DNA from: Niabella yanshanensis
Lineage (GTDB): Bacteria; Bacteroidota; Bacteroidia; Chitinophagales; Chitinophagaceae
NCBI RefSeq assembly: GCF_034424215.1
Contig: NZ_CP139960.1
Coordinates: 372,001 to 436,000 of the forward strand
Length of the DNA stretch: 64,000 bases
Direction of reading: 5' to 3'
Position 1 is the stretch's first letter; every line of letters begins with the position of its first letter. The position numbers were made by a program, and so were the translations under genes. The notes under the pieces are model-generated. The model was not told the DNA's origin. It ran no database searches and was given only the letters and a program-made list of their open reading frames with translations. This document shows positions 5,057 to 10,632 of the stretch, piece after piece.

Positions 5057-5094
5057 ACAAGCTTTTTCATTAATATGAGAAAGCTTGTTTTGTT
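5057..5094 (+). terminator. Rho-independent terminator of the DUF3606 gene
   Basis: ACAAGCTTTTTCAT (5057-5070) pairs with ATGAGAAAGCTTGT (5075-5088) with one mismatch around the loop TAAT, then TTTGTTG. It closes the DUF3606 unit and separates it from the transpeptidase gene, which argues for the inner start of the latter. Confidence 0.8.
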
Positions 5095-5180
5095 GTATGC
5101 TGTTTTACTCACAGAAAGCAAAATTTCTTTTATCAACCGAGTTTGGTATGGTTTTCAGAGGTTATACGCAAATTTCGTTT

Positions 5181-6518
5181 ATGGTTCAATTCAATAGATT
5201 ATTCTTATTCATGTGCTGTAGTGCGGGTATACTCTTTATATCAGCAGGCTGCAAAGATAAACTCGGGAGCAGCAATAATTATACAACTGATGAAGTGAAA
5301 CAGGCAGCAGCTCTACCCTCTGCAGACAATATTGCTTTTACCTTGCCGGTACTGGACGCATTATTTTTTGAAGATGGATTTGAGGCGCAGATAAAAGAAG
5401 AATTGAAATTAACGGATGATCAGTTGCGTCAGCTAAAATCAGTGTCAGGATCTTATGTAGCGGCCCTTACGGAAGAGGGTAATAATTTGGGCTCGGCGAG
5501 GCAGGCAAATAGTTCGGCGCTCGCTCAACTAAAGAAGATTATTGGGGAGCAGAAAGCCAGCACTCTGTTGAATATAGTAGCTGCGCGATATGCCAACGGT
5601 GATATCGCAGCTCTGTTACCGGTAAAGCCAAACGCAGTGCCTTCAGACACAAGAATTGTCGTCAATGCGCCTGCCTTTCGTATGGACGTTTATGAAAATG
5701 GTGAATTACTAAAAACCTACCGGATCGGAATCGGTTATCCTGAATTCCCGCTTCCAACAGGCATGAGAGCCATTACTAATATTATTTTTAATCCTACCTG
5801 GACACCTCCGGATGAAGCCTGGGTGAAGGGTAAATTTAAACCGGGCCGCAAGGTTTCGGCTGATAGTAAGGATAATCCTCTCGGTGTGATCAAGATTCCG
5901 ATTGGTATGCCTTCATTAATTCATGGGGGAAAAGTAACAGAAAAGCTGGGCAATTTTGCATCGCATGGTTGTGTAGGGCTTACCAATGACCAGGTTCAGG
6001 ATTTTTCAGCATTGGTGGGACAGATTTCCGGTACGCCAATTACATTAGACAGTATAAAAAGCTTCGAAAAAAATAGGGCAAAAACAAAAACGGCTAAACT
6101 TAACAGGTTAATACCGGTAGAGCTGCGCTATGAAACCATAGTTGCAGAAAATGGCCGGCTTATTATTTATCGCGACGTTTATGAACGTGGCACCAATACG
6201 CTGTCTGAAGTGGAGAAAATATTAGGAATCTATGGTATCAGTTTGCAAAGCCTCCCTCAGCCCGAGCAGCATGCTATACAAACAGCGCTGCAGGAAATGA
6301 ATCTGGATGCGAATGGAAAGCCCATAGCAAACCTGGGTATCAATCCTGATAGCACAAAAAACATTTCGGATTCAGACACAGAGCACAGCGTAAAAAAAGG
6401 TAAAGTAACACGTTCTGTTAAAGGGAAGACACAGGTAGTGGTAGCTGTTGCGGCATTACATTCAAAAGGATATCCCGCTCCTGTAAATCTGGATGCGGGG
6501 AAGCTTACTCATCAGTAA
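5181..6518 (+). CDS. L,D-transpeptidase (YkuD domain) lipoprotein
   Basis: A 445-residue lipoprotein read from the ATG at 5181. The frame opens at 5085, inside the upstream terminator, so the inner start is preferred; it gives a signal peptide with lipobox ISAGC. An N-terminal helical region (about 40-150) is followed by a YkuD domain (about 155-285) with conserved His in IHGGK and the catalytic motif SHGCVGL (H262, C264). A Lys/Ser/Thr-rich tail follows. Such enzymes make 3-3 cross-links in peptidoglycan or attach proteins to it in the periplasm. No LysM or amidase domain is seen. It appears monocistronic. Confidence 0.9.
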   Translation: MVQFNRLFLFMCCSAGILFISAGCKDKLGSSNNYTTDEVKQAAALPSADNIAFTLPVLDALFFEDGFEAQIKEELKLTDDQLRQLKSVSGSYVAALTEEGNNLGSARQANSSALAQLKKIIGEQKASTLLNIVAARYANGDIAALLPVKPNAVPSDTRIVVNAPAFRMDVYENGELLKTYRIGIGYPEFPLPTGMRAITNIIFNPTWTPPDEAWVKGKFKPGRKVSADSKDNPLGVIKIPIGMPSLIHGGKVTEKLGNFASHGCVGLTNDQVQDFSALVGQISGTPITLDSIKSFEKNRAKTKTAKLNRLIPVELRYETIVAENGRLIIYRDVYERGTNTLSEVEKILGIYGISLQSLPQPEQHAIQTALQEMNLDANGKPIANLGINPDSTKNISDSDTEHSVKKGKVTRSVKGKTQVVVAVAALHSKGYPAPVNLDAGKLTHQ

Positions 6519-6697
6519 GGATAATTAGCACCCAAAAAGCTTAACCAGACGAATTAAAAAGATAATACACCACGACCCCAATAAGAATGTTGGTAAATCA
6601 GATCTGCCAAGGATCTATTGTTGCACCAAATTAACCCGGCAAATCAAGAGCTCTAAATTTTCATTGGCTCTTTATTCAATTTTATGTAGGTTTGCTG

Positions 6698-6775
6698 AAA
6701 CATAGCACGGGGTGCCTTTGAATGGCTGAGATCATACCCGTTACCTGATTTGGATAATGCCAACGTAGGGATGCA
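6698..6775 (+). ncRNA. TPP riboswitch (THI box)
   Basis: The conserved thiamine-diphosphate aptamer core is present: CACGGGGTGCC (6706-6716), GGCTGAGATCATACCCG (6724-6740), ACCTGATTTGGATAATGCC (6743-6761) and CGTAGGGATGC (6764-6774). All the purine-rich pyrophosphate and pyrimidine-sensor segments match the consensus. The aptamer ends about 70 nt before the chosen start of the methyltransferase gene. A small hairpin TTGAAA / TTTCAA (6778-6795) follows. No terminator is visible, so control is probably at translation or by another mechanism. It places the next four genes under thiamine diphosphate control. Confidence 0.93.
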
Positions 6776-6843
6776 AGTTGAAATATCTGTTTCAAGCTCC
6801 ATCGTTTGATATCTGTCAGGTGATGGTCTTAAAAAAAAATGAA

Positions 6844-7566
6844 ATGGATATCAAAAAATTCTCCACAGACTTAATACCGCGGGAACAGCAGAACTGGCAA
6901 GGCAGGCCAGAATGGTTTTTCAATCGTGAACATACTGATACCTATGAGCAATGGTATGAAGGACGCTATAAACGCGCTGAACTGTGGCAGAAAAAAGTTA
7001 TGGAACAATTGGTTGGTGCCGATCGGCGGGTAAAAACATTGCTGGAGTTTGGCTGCGGAACAGCTCGTTTTACCCGGTGGTGGCAGCAAATAGGTATAGA
7101 AGCCACCGGAGGCGATCTTTCTCCGCTGATGCTCTCGCAGGCTAAACATCTTTTTCAGGGCGACCTGGTTATGGCAGACTCCCATCACATGCCTTTTAAA
7201 GACCATAGTTTTGATGCCCTTGCATTTATTACCACATTTGAATATTATAAAGATCCTGTGAAAGTTATTCGCGAAGCAGCAAGGGTGGGCAGGTATGGTA
7301 TAGCAATGGGCATGATGAACCGTAATTCTACCAAAGTAGCAAGACGTCGAGTTCAGCAATTATTCGGTAAAAACCCTTTTTATATCACAGCTACTTTTTA
7401 TACCCCAAAAAAATTAACGAATATTATTCATAGAGCCCTGGAAGGCCGGGAGTATGTTATTCGCTGGACCTGTACCGGGCTCCCGGGTTGGTTTCCAGTT
7501 CAGCAATGGGGGCTTCCCCTGGGTGATTTTTTTGGCTTGTATGTACAGTTTAAAGATGTAGCCTGA
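6844..7566 (+). CDS. Class I SAM-dependent methyltransferase in the TPP-riboswitch operon
   Basis: About 240 residues from the ATG at 6844; ATG 6823 and TTG 6778 are upstream alternatives, the last lying against the riboswitch. Motif I LLEFGCGTARFTRWW binds SAM; an acidic residue after strand 2 (GGDLSP), MADSHHMPFKDHSFDAL and TTFEYYKD complete a Rossmann methyltransferase. The C-terminal part (about 160-240) is Trp- and Phe-rich and specific. The gene overlaps the next one by one base (TGATG). A Trm112-like protein ends the same operon and could activate it. The substrate is unknown; thiamine-related chemistry is inferred from the riboswitch only. Confidence 0.85.
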   Translation: MDIKKFSTDLIPREQQNWQGRPEWFFNREHTDTYEQWYEGRYKRAELWQKKVMEQLVGADRRVKTLLEFGCGTARFTRWWQQIGIEATGGDLSPLMLSQAKHLFQGDLVMADSHHMPFKDHSFDALAFITTFEYYKDPVKVIREAARVGRYGIAMGMMNRNSTKVARRRVQQLFGKNPFYITATFYTPKKLTNIIHRALEGREYVIRWTCTGLPGWFPVQQWGLPLGDFFGLYVQFKDVA

Positions 7567-8621
7567 TGAGTGAACAGCAGGGTAAGGTAAACCAGCAGGT
7601 GTTTGAAACATTTATTCATCACAACTGCGGCCGGCAGCGTGAAGAAGTTCTCACAGGCCCCGGATTTGGTGTAGATGTATCTGTTATAGATTTAGCTGCA
7701 GGCATGGTTCTGGCACTTACCAGCGACCCTTTGTCTCTAATCCCTTCACTTGGATTGCAGGAGTCGGCATGGATGTCGGTTCATTTAATGGCCAATGACA
7801 TGGCCACTACTGGTCATGCACCCATGTATGGACAATTTGTACTTAATCTTCCGTCCTCCTTCTCAAAAAGCGACTTTAAAATTTATTGGGAATACATTCA
7901 CCAATTTTGCCTCGAAATAGGAGTCGCCATAACCGGTGGACACACAGGTTTCATTGAGGGTCAAAATTCTTCTATTGCGGGAGGGGGTACTTTGGCAGCG
8001 GTGCTACCTAAGGATCGGTTACTATTGTCTCAACTGGCGACGCCGGGAGATGTTATTTTAGTAACCAAAACCTGTGCACTGTCATCGTCGGCTATACTGG
8101 CAATGAGTTTTCCTGAAACAGTCAGGAACAGGGCTGGAGCGGAGCTGTACCAAAAGGCATGCGAATCGTTTTATCACACCTCATCATTGCCGGATGCTTT
8201 ATCGGCTGTAAACTCAAATGGCGGTAATGCGGGTGTTACTGCTATGCACGACGTAACTGAAGGCGGTGTGTTGGGTGCTATTTATGAACTATGTGTTGCG
8301 TCCGGATGCGGAGCGGTTATATACAATGATAGCCTGCCTGTGGATGATGCTCCTGCCCGTATCTGCGAAGTTTTTGATTTGGACCCGCGTTATTGCGTAG
8401 GTGCGGGAGCAATGATCATTGCCTGTAAGAAAGAGTCGTCGGGCGAGGTTATTGCCAGGTTGGCCAGTCGTAATATTCCCTGTGTGGAAGTTGGTGAACT
8501 GCGCGAAAAGCAAAACGGCATCATCCTCGTCGAAGGTGATGAAAAAAACAGGTTGACATATAGAGAAGCTGACCCATATTGGGAAGTATTTTATAAAGCA
8601 TTGAAAAGCGGCTGGAAATGA
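7566..8621 (+). CDS. PurM/HypE-like (AIR synthase-related) ATP-dependent enzyme
   Basis: A 351-residue protein of the PurM superfamily (PurM, ThiL, HypE, SelD). The N-terminal AIRS domain shows GFGVDVSVID, the conserved TSDPLSLIP and the MANDMATTGHAP helix; the C-terminal domain has AMHDVTEGGVLGAIYEL and the glycine-rich GAGAMIIAC. The MHDVTEGG form is closest to HypE. Family members use ATP to phosphorylate or activate a substrate. In a TPP-controlled operon a ThiL-like kinase role is tempting, but the canonical ThiL signature is not seen. No hydrogenase genes are nearby, so a true HypE role is unlikely. It overlaps both neighbours by 1-4 bases. Confidence 0.82.
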   Translation: MSEQQGKVNQQVFETFIHHNCGRQREEVLTGPGFGVDVSVIDLAAGMVLALTSDPLSLIPSLGLQESAWMSVHLMANDMATTGHAPMYGQFVLNLPSSFSKSDFKIYWEYIHQFCLEIGVAITGGHTGFIEGQNSSIAGGGTLAAVLPKDRLLLSQLATPGDVILVTKTCALSSSAILAMSFPETVRNRAGAELYQKACESFYHTSSLPDALSAVNSNGGNAGVTAMHDVTEGGVLGAIYELCVASGCGAVIYNDSLPVDDAPARICEVFDLDPRYCVGAGAMIIACKKESSGEVIARLASRNIPCVEVGELREKQNGIILVEGDEKNRLTYREADPYWEVFYKALKSGWK

Positions 8622-9268
8622 ATCGGAAAATTCAAGGCGAGATTTATCTTATTGTTGATCCCTCAGGCAACCAGGATAAATTGTTAAATAACCTGGAAAA
8701 AATTGTCAGTGAGAAAATTGCAGCGGTTCAGATATGGGATAACTTTCTTCCCAACGAAACTCCGCTACAGTTGATAAAACAGGTGCGTCATTTGTGCCAT
8801 TCCCAAAACATACCGGTGCTGATCAATAACCGGTGGGAATTATTAAATAGAATCAATCTGGATGGTGTTCATTTTGATAAAAAGCCGCATGATATTGTTC
8901 ATTTAAAGCGGAAAATAGGTCGGGACCTGATTATTGGTATTACATGCAACAATGACCTGTCTACTGTTCGATGGGCAGATGAAAACCGGCTTGACTACAT
9001 TTCATTTTGCTCTATGTTTCCTTCTTCAACCGCTAATAGTTGCGAGTTAGTAAACTTTGATACAATCAGAAGCGCACATGCGATAACTAATATGCCGTTT
9101 TTTCTGGCAGGCGGTATCAATCCTGACAACATACATACACTGGCTGCATTGAGTTATTCAGGTATTGCTGTGGTCTCAGGAATAATGAATGCCGCAGATC
9201 CCCTGGATCAACTAAAAAGCTATCAGGTTAAAATTAAAGAAACTAAAAATGCGATTAAGTACTATTGA
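8618..9268 (+). CDS. ThiE/TenI-like thiamine-phosphate synthase homologue
   Basis: A 216-residue TIM-barrel protein resembling ThiE and TenI. Recognisable ThiE landmarks are AVQIWD (usual AVQLRDK), IPVLINNRWEL (usual LIINDR), LDGVHFDKKPHD, IGITCNN, DYISFCSMFPSS, FFLAGGINPDNI and SGIAVVSGIM. Several binding residues differ: the Arg/Asp of QLRDK and the HLGQED motif are missing. Genuine pyrimidine/thiazole coupling is therefore uncertain. It starts 4 bases inside the upstream gene (ATGA) and its end overlaps the next start by 20 bp, so it is translated with its neighbours. It may couple a modified pyrimidine or act as an isomerase like TenI. Confidence 0.82.
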   Translation: MNRKIQGEIYLIVDPSGNQDKLLNNLEKIVSEKIAAVQIWDNFLPNETPLQLIKQVRHLCHSQNIPVLINNRWELLNRINLDGVHFDKKPHDIVHLKRKIGRDLIIGITCNNDLSTVRWADENRLDYISFCSMFPSSTANSCELVNFDTIRSAHAITNMPFFLAGGINPDNIHTLAALSYSGIAVVSGIMNAADPLDQLKSYQVKIKETKNAIKYY

Positions 9269-9554
9269 AAAACTATGTTGTTCCTTTGATAAAGCTGAAC
9301 TCGAGTTAACAGTCATTACCAGGGACATCGAAGATCAGGTTATAGAAGGTATATTATGCTGCAGGCATTGCAGGAGAGTCTATCCCATTGTATCTGGTAT
9401 ACCTATTATGAGTCCGGATGAATACCGGGAGCAAAAGCTGGAGCAACCTTTACTGGAGCGTTGGGGGAAAGGTAATGTCATGCATAATTTCCGGCTCCCC
9501 GGAAAAGCTGAAGATGATATGTCTGAGGGAGATCCGGCCGTGTTGGTGGGCTAA
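9249..9554 (+). CDS. Trm112-like zinc-ribbon protein
   Basis: A 101-residue protein. The core STIEKLCCSFDKAELEL ... IIEGILCCRHCRRVYPIVSGIPIM matches the Trm112/UPF0434 fold: two cysteines in CCSFDK, a CCRHC knuckle and the hallmark YPIVSGIPIM. Trm112 proteins bind and stabilise SAM methyltransferases in eukaryotes and archaea; bacterial homologues are less understood. Its presence in the same operon as a methyltransferase fits that role. The C-terminus (from residue 65) is polar and not recognised. The 20-bp overlap with the ThiE-like gene fixes it as the fourth operon member. Confidence 0.75.
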   Translation: MRLSTIEKLCCSFDKAELELTVITRDIEDQVIEGILCCRHCRRVYPIVSGIPIMSPDEYREQKLEQPLLERWGKGNVMHNFRLPGKAEDDMSEGDPAVLVG

Positions 9555-10632
9555 ATACGGTTATAAGTTAGCGGTATGGAGATACAATTGGTTGCCTGCG
9601 ATCGTTTGCCATAAAGAGTAAGCGATTTTTAAACCGACCAGCTGCGCCATCGTGGTCCGCCTGGTTGTCTTTGATATCTGGTTTGCTGCTTTTGGAACAT
9701 TAAAGTGTTCCTTATCGTGGATTTGCATAAAAAATGCAGGGATAGTAACTCGTTAAGTTTTTCAGATTTCTGGCTTGCCGGTATATGAATTTTATTGATC
9801 GGTATATTCTCATATCAGGCCTGTCTGAGGTAATGTGCAGAGACGTTGTTTATTGAATAGACACACAATCTCCGTTGTCCTTGTAGGGCGAGGCAATACA
9901 GCTTCCGTTTGCAATTGCTCAGGGCTTGAGAACAGCTGCAATACGCGGTTTATATAGCACTAACCTTGACGTCAGAGCAGAATATAAACAGCTGTAGTCA
10001 CTACTACAGATCAGGCTTGAGATGAAAACAGGCTTATGTTACGCGCCTGCAACCGCATAGGATATAACGGGCTTTAACCGGAATCAACGATTAATGCTTT
10101 ATCACGGCGCTGCACACAAACCTCTCTGGATAATTTTCTATAATTACGGTTTAGCCGATTGGCATAATTATCCAATTCAGAATTAAATTACCAGGTATTT
10201 AGTTTCTTGAATATTATAGTTTGTTTTAAAATTCATTATTGATTTAAGGGCTTTTCTTGAAGAATTTTGATAGTTGTATTAAAGAGCACTAAACTTCGCT
10301 GTTGATTAATAGAGCAAAGCTTGTTTGAAATTCGCCTTATTAGTATTCGCTGGTTGTTCTCGGTTCATGAGGGCTTTCATGTGGTTAGAGATACCTGCGG
10401 CTAACAGATTCAAATATACAAATTGTCGGCGAACAAAAAAAATGGTGTGGGAAAACAATAGCTAAATTATTGTAATCATGCATATTGTCACTATTGGGTG
10501 AGTTGTATATGGATAGCTTTTTTTTGGCGGATGCTACATGCATCGGTTACGATAATTTATAAGCAGGTAAGACACTATAATTCCAGAAAGCTATTCAGTT
10601 TCCAAAAGGATTAGAACCTGAGTTAATCATTT
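9555..10632. other. Gene-free interval of about 1.1 kb
   Basis: No frame with recognisable coding character on either strand. A hairpin CTGTAGT / ACTACAG lies at 9992-10009. The remainder is AT-rich with scattered T-tracts. It may hold decayed sequence or an untranslated RNA, but I see nothing that supports either. Confidence 0.5.

Follow-up and report, generated by a model that had tools for sequence, protein, structure and literature searches.

In Niabella yanshanensis, a thiamine diphosphate (TPP) riboswitch aptamer stands ahead of four closely packed genes, which probably encode an undescribed route for the recovery or completion of vitamin B1. We give about even credence to the reading that this set is a self-contained thiamine-supply module, spread horizontally and controlled by TPP, which would act on an imported thiamine-related compound. 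The stretch of DNA analyzed, called the window below, comprises 64,000 nt (assembly GCF_034424215.1, NZ_CP139960.1, positions 372,001-436,000, forward strand). The features of the operon, in positions of the window, are as follows.

6698-6788, + strand: TPP riboswitch aptamer RF00059 (70.1 bits, full model length)
6844-7566, + strand: class I SAM methyltransferase, about 240 aa (Pfam Methyltransf_11, 69.3 bits)
7566-8621, + strand: AIRS/PurM-superfamily ATP enzyme, 351 aa (Pfam AIRS_C, 71.6 bits; AIRS, 34.0 bits)
8618-9268, + strand: ThiE-fold (TMP-TENI) protein, 216 aa (Pfam TMP-TENI, 125.7 bits)
9249-9554, + strand: Trm112-like zinc-ribbon protein, 101 aa (Pfam Trm112p, PF03966, 31.1 bits)

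All Pfam matches of the four proteins exceed the cut-off. The adjacent genes overlap by 1, 4 and 20 bases, in gene order, and the conserved start of the methyltransferase is the ATG at 6844, with a second in-frame ATG at 6823. The aptamer scores 70.1 bits, above the gathering score of 54.3, and is the sole Rfam match at the gathering score within the 64-kb window; the aptamers of three relatives score between 68.4 and 71.6 bits. The initial annotation of this DNA, which placed a TPP aptamer ahead of four packed genes with overlapping ends, is thus confirmed. Its statement that the set lacks ThiC, ThiD, ThiG and a thiamine transporter is borne out by the gene content as well, the operon consisting of the four genes only. 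A TPP-sensing riboswitch normally lowers expression at high TPP, shutting off TPP supply, and the present module would likewise be expected to turn off once TPP is abundant. Two further TPP aptamers occur elsewhere in the same genome, one before a TonB receptor and the other before pnuT and a flavin-monooxygenase-like gene; from these neighbors, the two mark import.

To describe the spread of the set, we scanned one genome per species, using the methyltransferase plus two peptide patterns as the seed. This yielded 155 relatives, and the best 80 of the 155 were used for locus comparison; these 80 loci represent 78 genomes, two of which hold two copies. A TPP aptamer precedes the methyltransferase in all of the best 80 loci, with 43-163 bases between its 3' end and the start codon, and a plain text pattern alone recovers it in 68 of them. 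In 79 loci the remaining three genes come next, always in this order, and the single exception (L099) ends at a contig edge. No extra gene was common to the flanks of more than 10 of 83 loci, counting frames of at least 90 residues. A search for co-occurrence of the four families behind a TPP aptamer, as had been suggested with the initial annotation, therefore came out clearly positive: with the order kept in 79/80 and the aptamer in 80/80 of these best loci, the set is not a chance grouping. Together with the lack of any other widely shared gene, this suggests that the four gene products work jointly in response to TPP status. Because the scan was seeded with the methyltransferase, sets devoid of it would escape. 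A search seeded with the ATP enzyme found close homologues in 4 of 59 genomes (own included), and all four carry the same aptamer and gene set, one of them in an assembly with frame shifts. Genome G003 is 72% complete and its module copy is frame-shifted, so absences in it weigh little.

The same 80 loci were used to look into the leader. The leader of the window folds with an anti-aptamer pairing. A conserved pairing of this kind is unsupported, the mean longest complement being 4.8 as against 4.7 in shuffles for the 68 of the best 80 loci that could be scored. A leader terminator was rejected too: 5 terminator-like sites lie in 6500-9800 of the window versus 2.9 in shuffles, and none on the + strand lies between the aptamer and the start codon.

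The distribution of the module is patchy, and judging from sequence it seems to move between lineages. Carriers among the listed relatives include cultured environmental species of Pedobacter, Runella, Mucilaginibacter and others, and within its own genus the module is present in 3 of 17 genomes (own included). Among the matches listed, the copy in the window shares 75% identity with the one in Pedobacter chinensis and 64% with the one in the congener Niabella ginsengisoli; this comparison took in all loci with three genes, and figures were listed from 16 queries. A search of viral contigs with two peptide patterns found no relative of the ATP enzyme. On plasmids, all matches were below 60% identity (81 records for the ATP enzyme, 13 for the methyltransferase and 158 for the ThiE-like protein), and the search thus gave no plasmid copy of the module itself.

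We took a census of thiamine genes in the carriers. From the 80 loci, 47 were chosen to thin repeated genera, of which 46 were used (without L033), and five genomes found earlier were added; since two of the 51 entries (G252 and G314) are the same genome, the census covers 50 carriers, those reached through loci being entered without completeness values. ThiC, ThiG, ThiD, ThiL, TPK and TMP-TENI were counted, and we set our own thresholds of more than 300 bits for a true ThiG and more than 130 bits for a full-length ThiD. ThiC is present in 6 of the 50 carriers, full-length ThiG in 5, full-length ThiD in 6 and a TPK domain in 8, and in 44 of the 50 all three of ThiC, full-length ThiG and full-length ThiD are absent. 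A single carrier ThiD passes the NCBI cut-off, and G316 holds a 107.6-bit ThiD fragment. A full thi pathway in every carrier, which had been named in advance as speaking against a thiamine-related role of the set, is thus not what we found. In the window's genome, ThiC and TPK have no match, the matches to ThiG (22-bit) and ThiD (51-bit) are partial, and one canonical ThiL (307.7 bits) is encoded apart from the operon; the ThiE-fold protein of the operon is the genome's only TMP-TENI match. As for the proposed check of whether carriers lack other thi genes, ThiC, ThiG and ThiD are mostly absent, and canonical ThiL is present in 50/50.

These counts were set against the class Bacteroidia. ThiL is present in 212 of 217 genomes of the class; being nearly universal, its presence in carriers says little, and we dropped ThiL retention as a proof that the module makes thiamine phosphate (TMP). 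The TPK domain is about equally rare elsewhere, occurring in 43/217 class genomes (42/215 without two carriers) versus 8/50 carriers (Fisher p 0.69), and the idea of the module as a TPK replacement was dropped as well. A TPK-like protein missed by Pfam may exist in carriers, and one was seen by eye in Pedobacter. ThiC is rarer in carriers than in the class (6/50 versus 67/215, p 0.005), by a statistic that ignores relatedness and on hand-chosen genomes. Overall, 150 of the 217 class genomes lack ThiC, and 118 lack both ThiC and TPK. Among these 118, the module occurs in the window's own genome alone and is therefore not the general answer to a missing step.

Residues were then compared over all loci (79 or 80 of the best 80 of 155 relatives, plus the window), while the family alignments were built from 50 of these 80 loci and the window, L027 being included in some and left out of others, and the Trm112 alignment from 49 of 80 plus two. 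The third protein of the operon has the TMP-TENI fold (125.7 bits), and its PDB matches include ThiE (1.7e-23) and TenI (4.2e-14). Q38, W40, H85, T109, C131 and C142 are invariant, and the phosphate-loop glycines 165-166 are retained, as in ThiE and TenI. Unlike in these proteins, the ligands of HMP-pyrophosphate (HMP-PP) and magnesium are lost. In what we take to be B. subtilis ThiE numbering, with presumed roles as HMP-PP/pyrophosphate and Mg2+ ligands, R59 is replaced by W40 in 80/80 sequences from the best loci, K61 by N or H in 78/80, D93 by N in 67/80, D112 by P in 72/80 and K159 by A or S in 73/80. The earlier description of a ThiE-like barrel without several usual ligand residues agrees well with this replacement of Arg, Lys and Asp residues, seen in 67 to 80 of the 80 sequences. 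C131 and C142, on the other hand, are found in 80/80. A three-cysteine metal site is weakened as a candidate, Cys 110 missing in 5 of the 80 best loci. The protein misses the NCBIfam thiE cut-off (117.4 versus 145.1) and branches apart from canonical ThiE and ThiE2 of the same phylum (24 rows). With these ligands lost and two invariant cysteines present, it appears hardly an ordinary TMP synthase from its sequence.

PurM and HypE activate carbonyl oxygens using ATP, and the second protein shares the fold and the conserved acidic residues of the AIRS superfamily, to which HypE, SelD, ThiL and PurM belong. Its invariant residues are G6-K7, D37, D54, N77-D78, GGHT 124-127, H228, D229, T231 and E232. 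The closest fold is that of HypE (Z 35.0, rmsd 2.6, 323 aligned, 16% identity), followed by SelD (29.0), ThiL (28.7) and PurM (24.0; Z 19-24 among the matches listed), so the label PurM/HypE-like of the initial annotation fits. Unlike the known members, the protein falls below all NCBIfam cut-offs: its best match is thiL, at 76.7 against an equivalog cut-off of 184.15, and it scores 69.1 against 251.6 for HypE and 44.3 against 125 for SelD. It also lacks the cysteines typical of HypE and SelD. The chain ends G-W-K in place of the carbamoyl-carrying C-terminal cysteine of HypE, the last column holding K in 66 of 81 sequences and then T (7), Q (2), R (2) and N (2). Ahead of the invariant Lys 7, where SelD has Cys/Sec, the consensus of 51 rows has no conserved Cys. 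The Foldseek and VIA lists do not single out one function among HypE, SelD and ThiL. A SelD-like family of Crenarchaeota has been proposed, according to the abstract, to serve sulfur metabolism outside selenium metabolism (PMC4210487). It is likewise a SelD relative with a proposed role beyond selenium, found in different organisms and in a different context, and the abstract draws no link to thiamine.

Among the four proteins, conservation is highest in the methyltransferase, with a mean column identity of 83% (52 rows) as compared to 65, 58 and 54% for the others. Its PDB profile matches include the 18S rRNA N7-guanine methyltransferase BUD23, which is a Trm112 partner, and its fold matches include the Haloferax Trm112-Hvo_0019 complex; generic methyltransferases rank above both in the respective lists. 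Assigning a substrate from the fold was given up, the matches being generic and the single-chain model poor (mean pLDDT 71.2, residues 1-33 below 50). In the Trm112-like protein, Cys 11, 38 and 41 are conserved in 80/80 and Cys 10 in 78/80 of the best loci. It matches the Trm112p domain PF03966 at 31.1 bits against a cut-off of 22, and misses the cut-off of NCBIfam Trm112_arch (56.8 versus 77). Its nearest solved structures by sequence are archaeal Trm112, namely 6zxw, which we take to be such a structure, and 6f5z, the Haloferax Trm112 complex according to the fold list. As for Bud23 and archaeal Hvo_0019, a gene for a small zinc protein sits beside one for a class I methyltransferase; in contrast to those systems, the pair here lies behind a TPP aptamer with thiamine-type partners. 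We infer a complex of the two, the methyltransferase probably being active only together with its predicted Trm112 partner. To our knowledge, if this reading is true, no Trm112-methyltransferase pair had been linked to a vitamin before.

For the module as a whole, we infer a salvage role. The substrate would be an imported thiamine-related compound, such as a degraded, oxidized or partial vitamin, and the product TMP or a thiazole or pyrimidine phosphate, from which the separate canonical ThiL would complete TPP. The methyltransferase and Trm112 could, as one holoenzyme, methylate the substrate itself or a position on it that serves for protection or activation. The HypE/SelD-like enzyme would activate the oxygen of a carbonyl or hydroxyl group at the cost of ATP, by phosphorylation or dehydration. 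The ThiE-fold protein has kept its phosphate-holding loops and lost the HMP-pyrophosphate and Mg2+ site; its pair of invariant cysteines may carry out the final step, in which a bond or ring is made. The 6 of 50 carriers that also have ThiC fit salvage, and three catalytic proteins would be too few for de novo synthesis. Stated in full, the proposal has three enzymes at work, namely a methyltransferase activated by Trm112, an ATP enzyme resembling HypE and a ThiE-fold enzyme that depends on cysteine. Together they would build thiamine phosphate, or rebuild it, with no need of ThiC, ThiG, ThiD or a classical TMP synthase, and their genes would form a B1 cassette portable between Bacteroidota; this version we hold tentatively, at somewhat less than even confidence. 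We know of no described thiamine enzyme that performs chemistry of this kind.

Several other explanations have to be weighed against salvage. The module might contribute part of a new biosynthesis, making the pyrimidine or thiazole half (or TMP) from ordinary metabolites independently of ThiC and ThiG, with a PurM-like ring closure. The 44/50 carriers without ThiC, full-length ThiG and full-length ThiD would suit this, as would the fold common to PurM (Z 19-24 among the matches listed) and HypE (Z up to 35), both carbonyl-oxygen activators. Nevertheless, we regard it as unlikely, given three catalytic proteins only, the retention of ThiC in 6/50 carriers and the import genes behind TPP aptamers in the window's genome. 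More improbable is an ordinary TMP synthase and kinase, in which the ThiE-like and the ThiL-like protein would catalyze the usual coupling and phosphorylation and the other two genes would be passengers. The replaced HMP-PP/Mg2+ ligands (67 to 80 of the best 80 sequences) and the scores of both proteins under the NCBIfam cut-offs (117.4 < 145.1; 76.7 < 184.15) argue against it, despite the 125.7-bit TMP-TENI fold and although, among NCBIfam models, the ATP enzyme scores highest with thiL (76.7 bits). Moreover, full-length ThiD is missing from 44/50 carriers, canonical ThiL is already there in 50/50, and a methyltransferase conserved at 83%, above the 65, 58 and 54% of the others, does not look like a passenger.

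The constancy of the SAM methyltransferase, a partner in 4/4 genomes of the ATP-enzyme-seeded search, could instead point to a modified thiamine, either a methylated cofactor or an antivitamin, for which TPP would serve as the starting material or as a signal. We give this little credence: a switch that normally lowers expression at high TPP has the wrong sense for TPP as a substrate, and no gene of any kind is common to more than 10 of the 83 flanks. Of the thiamine-related roles put forward in the initial annotation, salvage or a variant route is thus the best reading, whereas a modified or methylated end product is less likely, because the usual effect of a TPP-sensing switch is to stop the supply of TPP. 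The enzymes that pair with Trm112 in archaea and eukaryotes modify tRNA, rRNA or release factors, and BUD23 is among the PDB matches, so that the methyltransferase and Trm112 might methylate RNA or protein, TPP control tying translation to vitamin status. This we consider very improbable, since it leaves the constant ThiE-like and AIRS genes unexplained and generic methyltransferases rank higher in the PDB profile and fold lists.

Thiamine metabolism is regarded as nearly complete. The many Bacteroidota without the main thiamine genes, together with a constant TPP-controlled cassette, suggest that there may be at least one further way to obtain TPP. No description of the four-gene module was found in the literature searched, which covers the field incompletely. 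The TPP regulon of Bacteroides thetaiotaomicron, as given in the main text of its description, comprises thiSEGCHF-tenI, OMthi and pnuT-tnr3, and the word methyltransferase is absent from that main text (PMC5613172). There, TPP aptamers precede thiamine genes, and the window's genome likewise has a TonB receptor and a PnuT-type transporter under aptamers; it differs from that regulon in lacking ThiC and ThiG and in having the four-gene module as its third TPP-controlled operon.

The genome of the window is a single contig of 5.54 Mb. Rfam gave one match at gathering score in the window, a TPP aptamer, which is followed by four genes with overlapping ends:

5085-6518, + strand: L,D-transpeptidase-like gene, left of the module on the same strand
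6698-6788, + strand: TPP aptamer (Rfam, 70.1 bits)
6844-7566, + strand: methyltransferase gene, first of the four
7566-8621, + strand: AIRS-superfamily protein gene (ATP enzyme), second
8618-9268, + strand: TMP-TENI protein gene (ThiE-like), third
9249-9554, + strand: Trm112 protein gene, fourth

To the right of the module, about 1.1 kb with short frames only precedes genes on the opposite strand.

The ATP enzyme was searched in 59 genomes, the window's own and its relatives. Close homologues appeared in four of them, namely the window's genome, G002 (Niabella ginsengisoli), G003 and G018; the remaining matches (at most 38 bits) were paralogues such as ThiL. The same four-gene set follows a TPP aptamer of 68.4-71.6 bits in G002, G018 and G003, with different neighbours, and the G003 copy is interrupted by frame shifts. 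Module genes seem frame-shifted both in G003 (locus L028, several frames) and in G002 (locus L026, an odd start of the ThiE-like gene); since canonical ThiL is also split in these two assemblies, the frame shifts are probably sequencing errors.

A scan with the methyltransferase alignment, one genome per species, yielded 155 relatives, and the best 80 were analysed, all of them Bacteroidota by record titles, Balneolaceae included. The other three genes follow the methyltransferase in the same order in 79 of these 80 loci, the one exception being L099, where the contig ends. A covariance model built on six TPP aptamers, one from a genome also among the 80, located one aptamer 5' of the methyltransferase at every locus (80/80, E <=1.2e-13), its end lying 43-163 bases from the start codon. 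Gaps between the genes are mostly -23 to +20 bases. Comparison of the flanks revealed no further gene common to more than 10 of 83 loci. The constancy of the aptamer and of the gene order, together with the absence of any other widely common gene, defines the unit as the aptamer plus four genes. The co-occurrence that the initial annotation suggested looking for is found among the best 80 of the 155 relatives.

The module is patchily distributed. It was found in 2 of 217 Bacteroidia in an even sample (E 1e-60) and in 3 of 17 genomes of the window's genus, own included. The window copy is closer to those of other genera (Pedobacter chinensis, 75% identity; Ferruginibacter, 74%) than to that of its congener Niabella ginsengisoli (64%), which suggests that the module has been transferred between lineages. 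The Pedobacter chinensis copy is 88% identical to that of Ferruginibacter, versus 80% to that of a Pedobacter MAG. Two copies occur in Arenibacter sp. F26102 (L059 and L064, one contig, 92% identical) and in A. arenosicollis (L051 and L066, two contigs, 89% identical). A Christiangramia MAG carries a second TPP aptamer shortly downstream of the module on the opposite strand (L067:8819-8910, minus strand; 39.8 bits with R1, our own aptamer model).

Conservation is highest in the methyltransferase, where 110 of 240 positions are identical in 81 sequences; 14 of the 110 fall within residues 21-40, which are mostly of low confidence in the single-chain model. The PDB matches of the methyltransferase include BUD23, and its fold matches include the Haloferax Trm112 complex, with generic proteins ranking higher in both cases. 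The Trm112 protein has retained its cysteines, and its nearest relatives are Trm112 proteins of archaea. We infer that the two likely form a holoenzyme.

For the ATP enzyme, the top NCBIfam matches were thiL (76.7 bits), hypE (69.1) and selD (44.3), each far under cut-off. AlphaFold modelled it with good confidence (mean pLDDT 93.1), and the nearest fold is HypE (Z 35.0, rmsd 2.6, 323 aligned), followed by SelD (Z 29.0) and ThiL (Z 28.7); HypE has a C-terminal cysteine, whereas the ATP enzyme lacks it. D37, D54, D78 and D229, acidic residues that correspond to the metal site of the superfamily, are invariant in 81/81 sequences, as are GGHT and the N-terminal Lys, so the enzyme is probably active. 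More distant relatives lie on archaeal and other plasmids, with 27-35% identity in the 15 records listed out of 81. On the three Haloarcula plasmids inspected (L123, L127, L128) a relative of 29-30% identity is divergent from genes for a thiamine-binding protein and a thiamine transporter. This hint of thiamine is weak, because the relative in Acaryochloris is near hydrogenase maturation genes, that in Halobacterium adjoins alkaline phosphatase and CoA transferase, that in Acetoanaerobium has no thiamine-type neighbour by eye, and a search of four loci detected no TPP aptamer.

The ThiE-like protein matched solved structures of ThiE (1.7e-23) and TenI (4.2e-14), and is under the NCBIfam thiE cut-off (117.4 < 145.1). 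In a tree of 24 rows, with a very long lone TenI row, it branches separately from both canonical ThiE and a second form in Bacteroidota, here named ThiE2. The earlier claim that this barrel lacks usual ligand residues was confirmed at five positions, presumably ligand sites as numbered after B. subtilis ThiE: R59 is Trp in 80/80 aligned sequences, K61 Asn or His in 78, D93 Asn in 67, D112 Pro in 72 and K159 Ala or Ser in 73. The phosphate-loop glycines are kept in all 80, Ser 187 in 79, Gln 38, His 85, Thr 109, Cys 131 and Cys 142 in all 80, and Cys 110 in 75. Judged from these residues, binding of HMP-PP and Mg2+ in the ThiE manner is scarcely possible, and the protein may still hold a phosphorylated thiazole.

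We surveyed ThiC, ThiG, ThiD, TPK, ThiL and TMP-TENI in 50 distinct carriers (51 handles, G252 and G314 being one genome). ThiC was present in 6/50, full-length ThiD in the same six, full-length ThiG in five (remaining matches partial, at most 36 bits), a TPK domain in eight and canonical ThiL in all 50. By hand count, the operon protein is the sole TMP-TENI match above cut-off in 35/50, with the borderline G281 scored as having a second. Background frequencies in the class sample were 67/217 for ThiC, 43/217 for TPK and 212/217 for ThiL, and 118/217 had neither ThiC nor TPK. ThiC is rarer in carriers (6/50 versus 67/215, p 0.005, kinship ignored); TPK frequency gave p 0.69, and TPK and ThiL frequencies are not informative. 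In the carrier Pedobacter namyangjuensis (G316), fragments of ThiD (116-residue frame) and of a TMP-TENI protein, the latter interrupted by a stop, look like a decayed canonical thi operon (L122, G316:C12 ~708,000-717,000).

The window's genome has two further TPP aptamers, one in front of a TonB receptor and the other in front of pnuT with an overlapping monooxygenase-like gene (L005:12073-13898; G000:C1 ~3,676,000-3,677,900, minus strand). With these, the TPP-controlled genes seen are those for import, one oxygenase-like enzyme and the module. The monooxygenase-like protein is similar to flavin monooxygenases of group D (HsaA 76 bits, HpaB 48, DszC 30, all under cut-off), and we know of no described thiamine role for such a pnuT-linked protein.

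An increase in TPP supply is very probably the module's role. Most of the observations are explained if it salvages or repairs a thiamine-related compound taken up from outside, given the importers, the few enzymes, the patchy spread and the presence of ThiC alongside the module in a few carriers. A literature search in an incomplete collection returned no description of the four-gene set. In PMC3766115, the words methyltransferase and monooxygenase are absent from the main text, and Bacteroidaceae is the only family of Bacteroidota among the table entries inspected.

The pair of pnuT and monooxygenase recurs in Mucilaginibacter aquariorum (L111:140-1866), behind a TonB receptor, with a phosphodiesterase-like protein and ThiE2 encoded next; the aptamer there was detected by our own model only (32.4 bits, E 2.9e-8). 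In a Pedobacter cluster (L113:1314-5465, L112, L115 and partly L114), a TonB receptor follows one or two TPP aptamers. ThiE2 is also present, as is a protein that is TPK-like by eye and has no Pfam or NCBIfam match. The aptamers of this cluster score 20-40 bits with R1, those of L113 and L115 falling under the Rfam gathering score.
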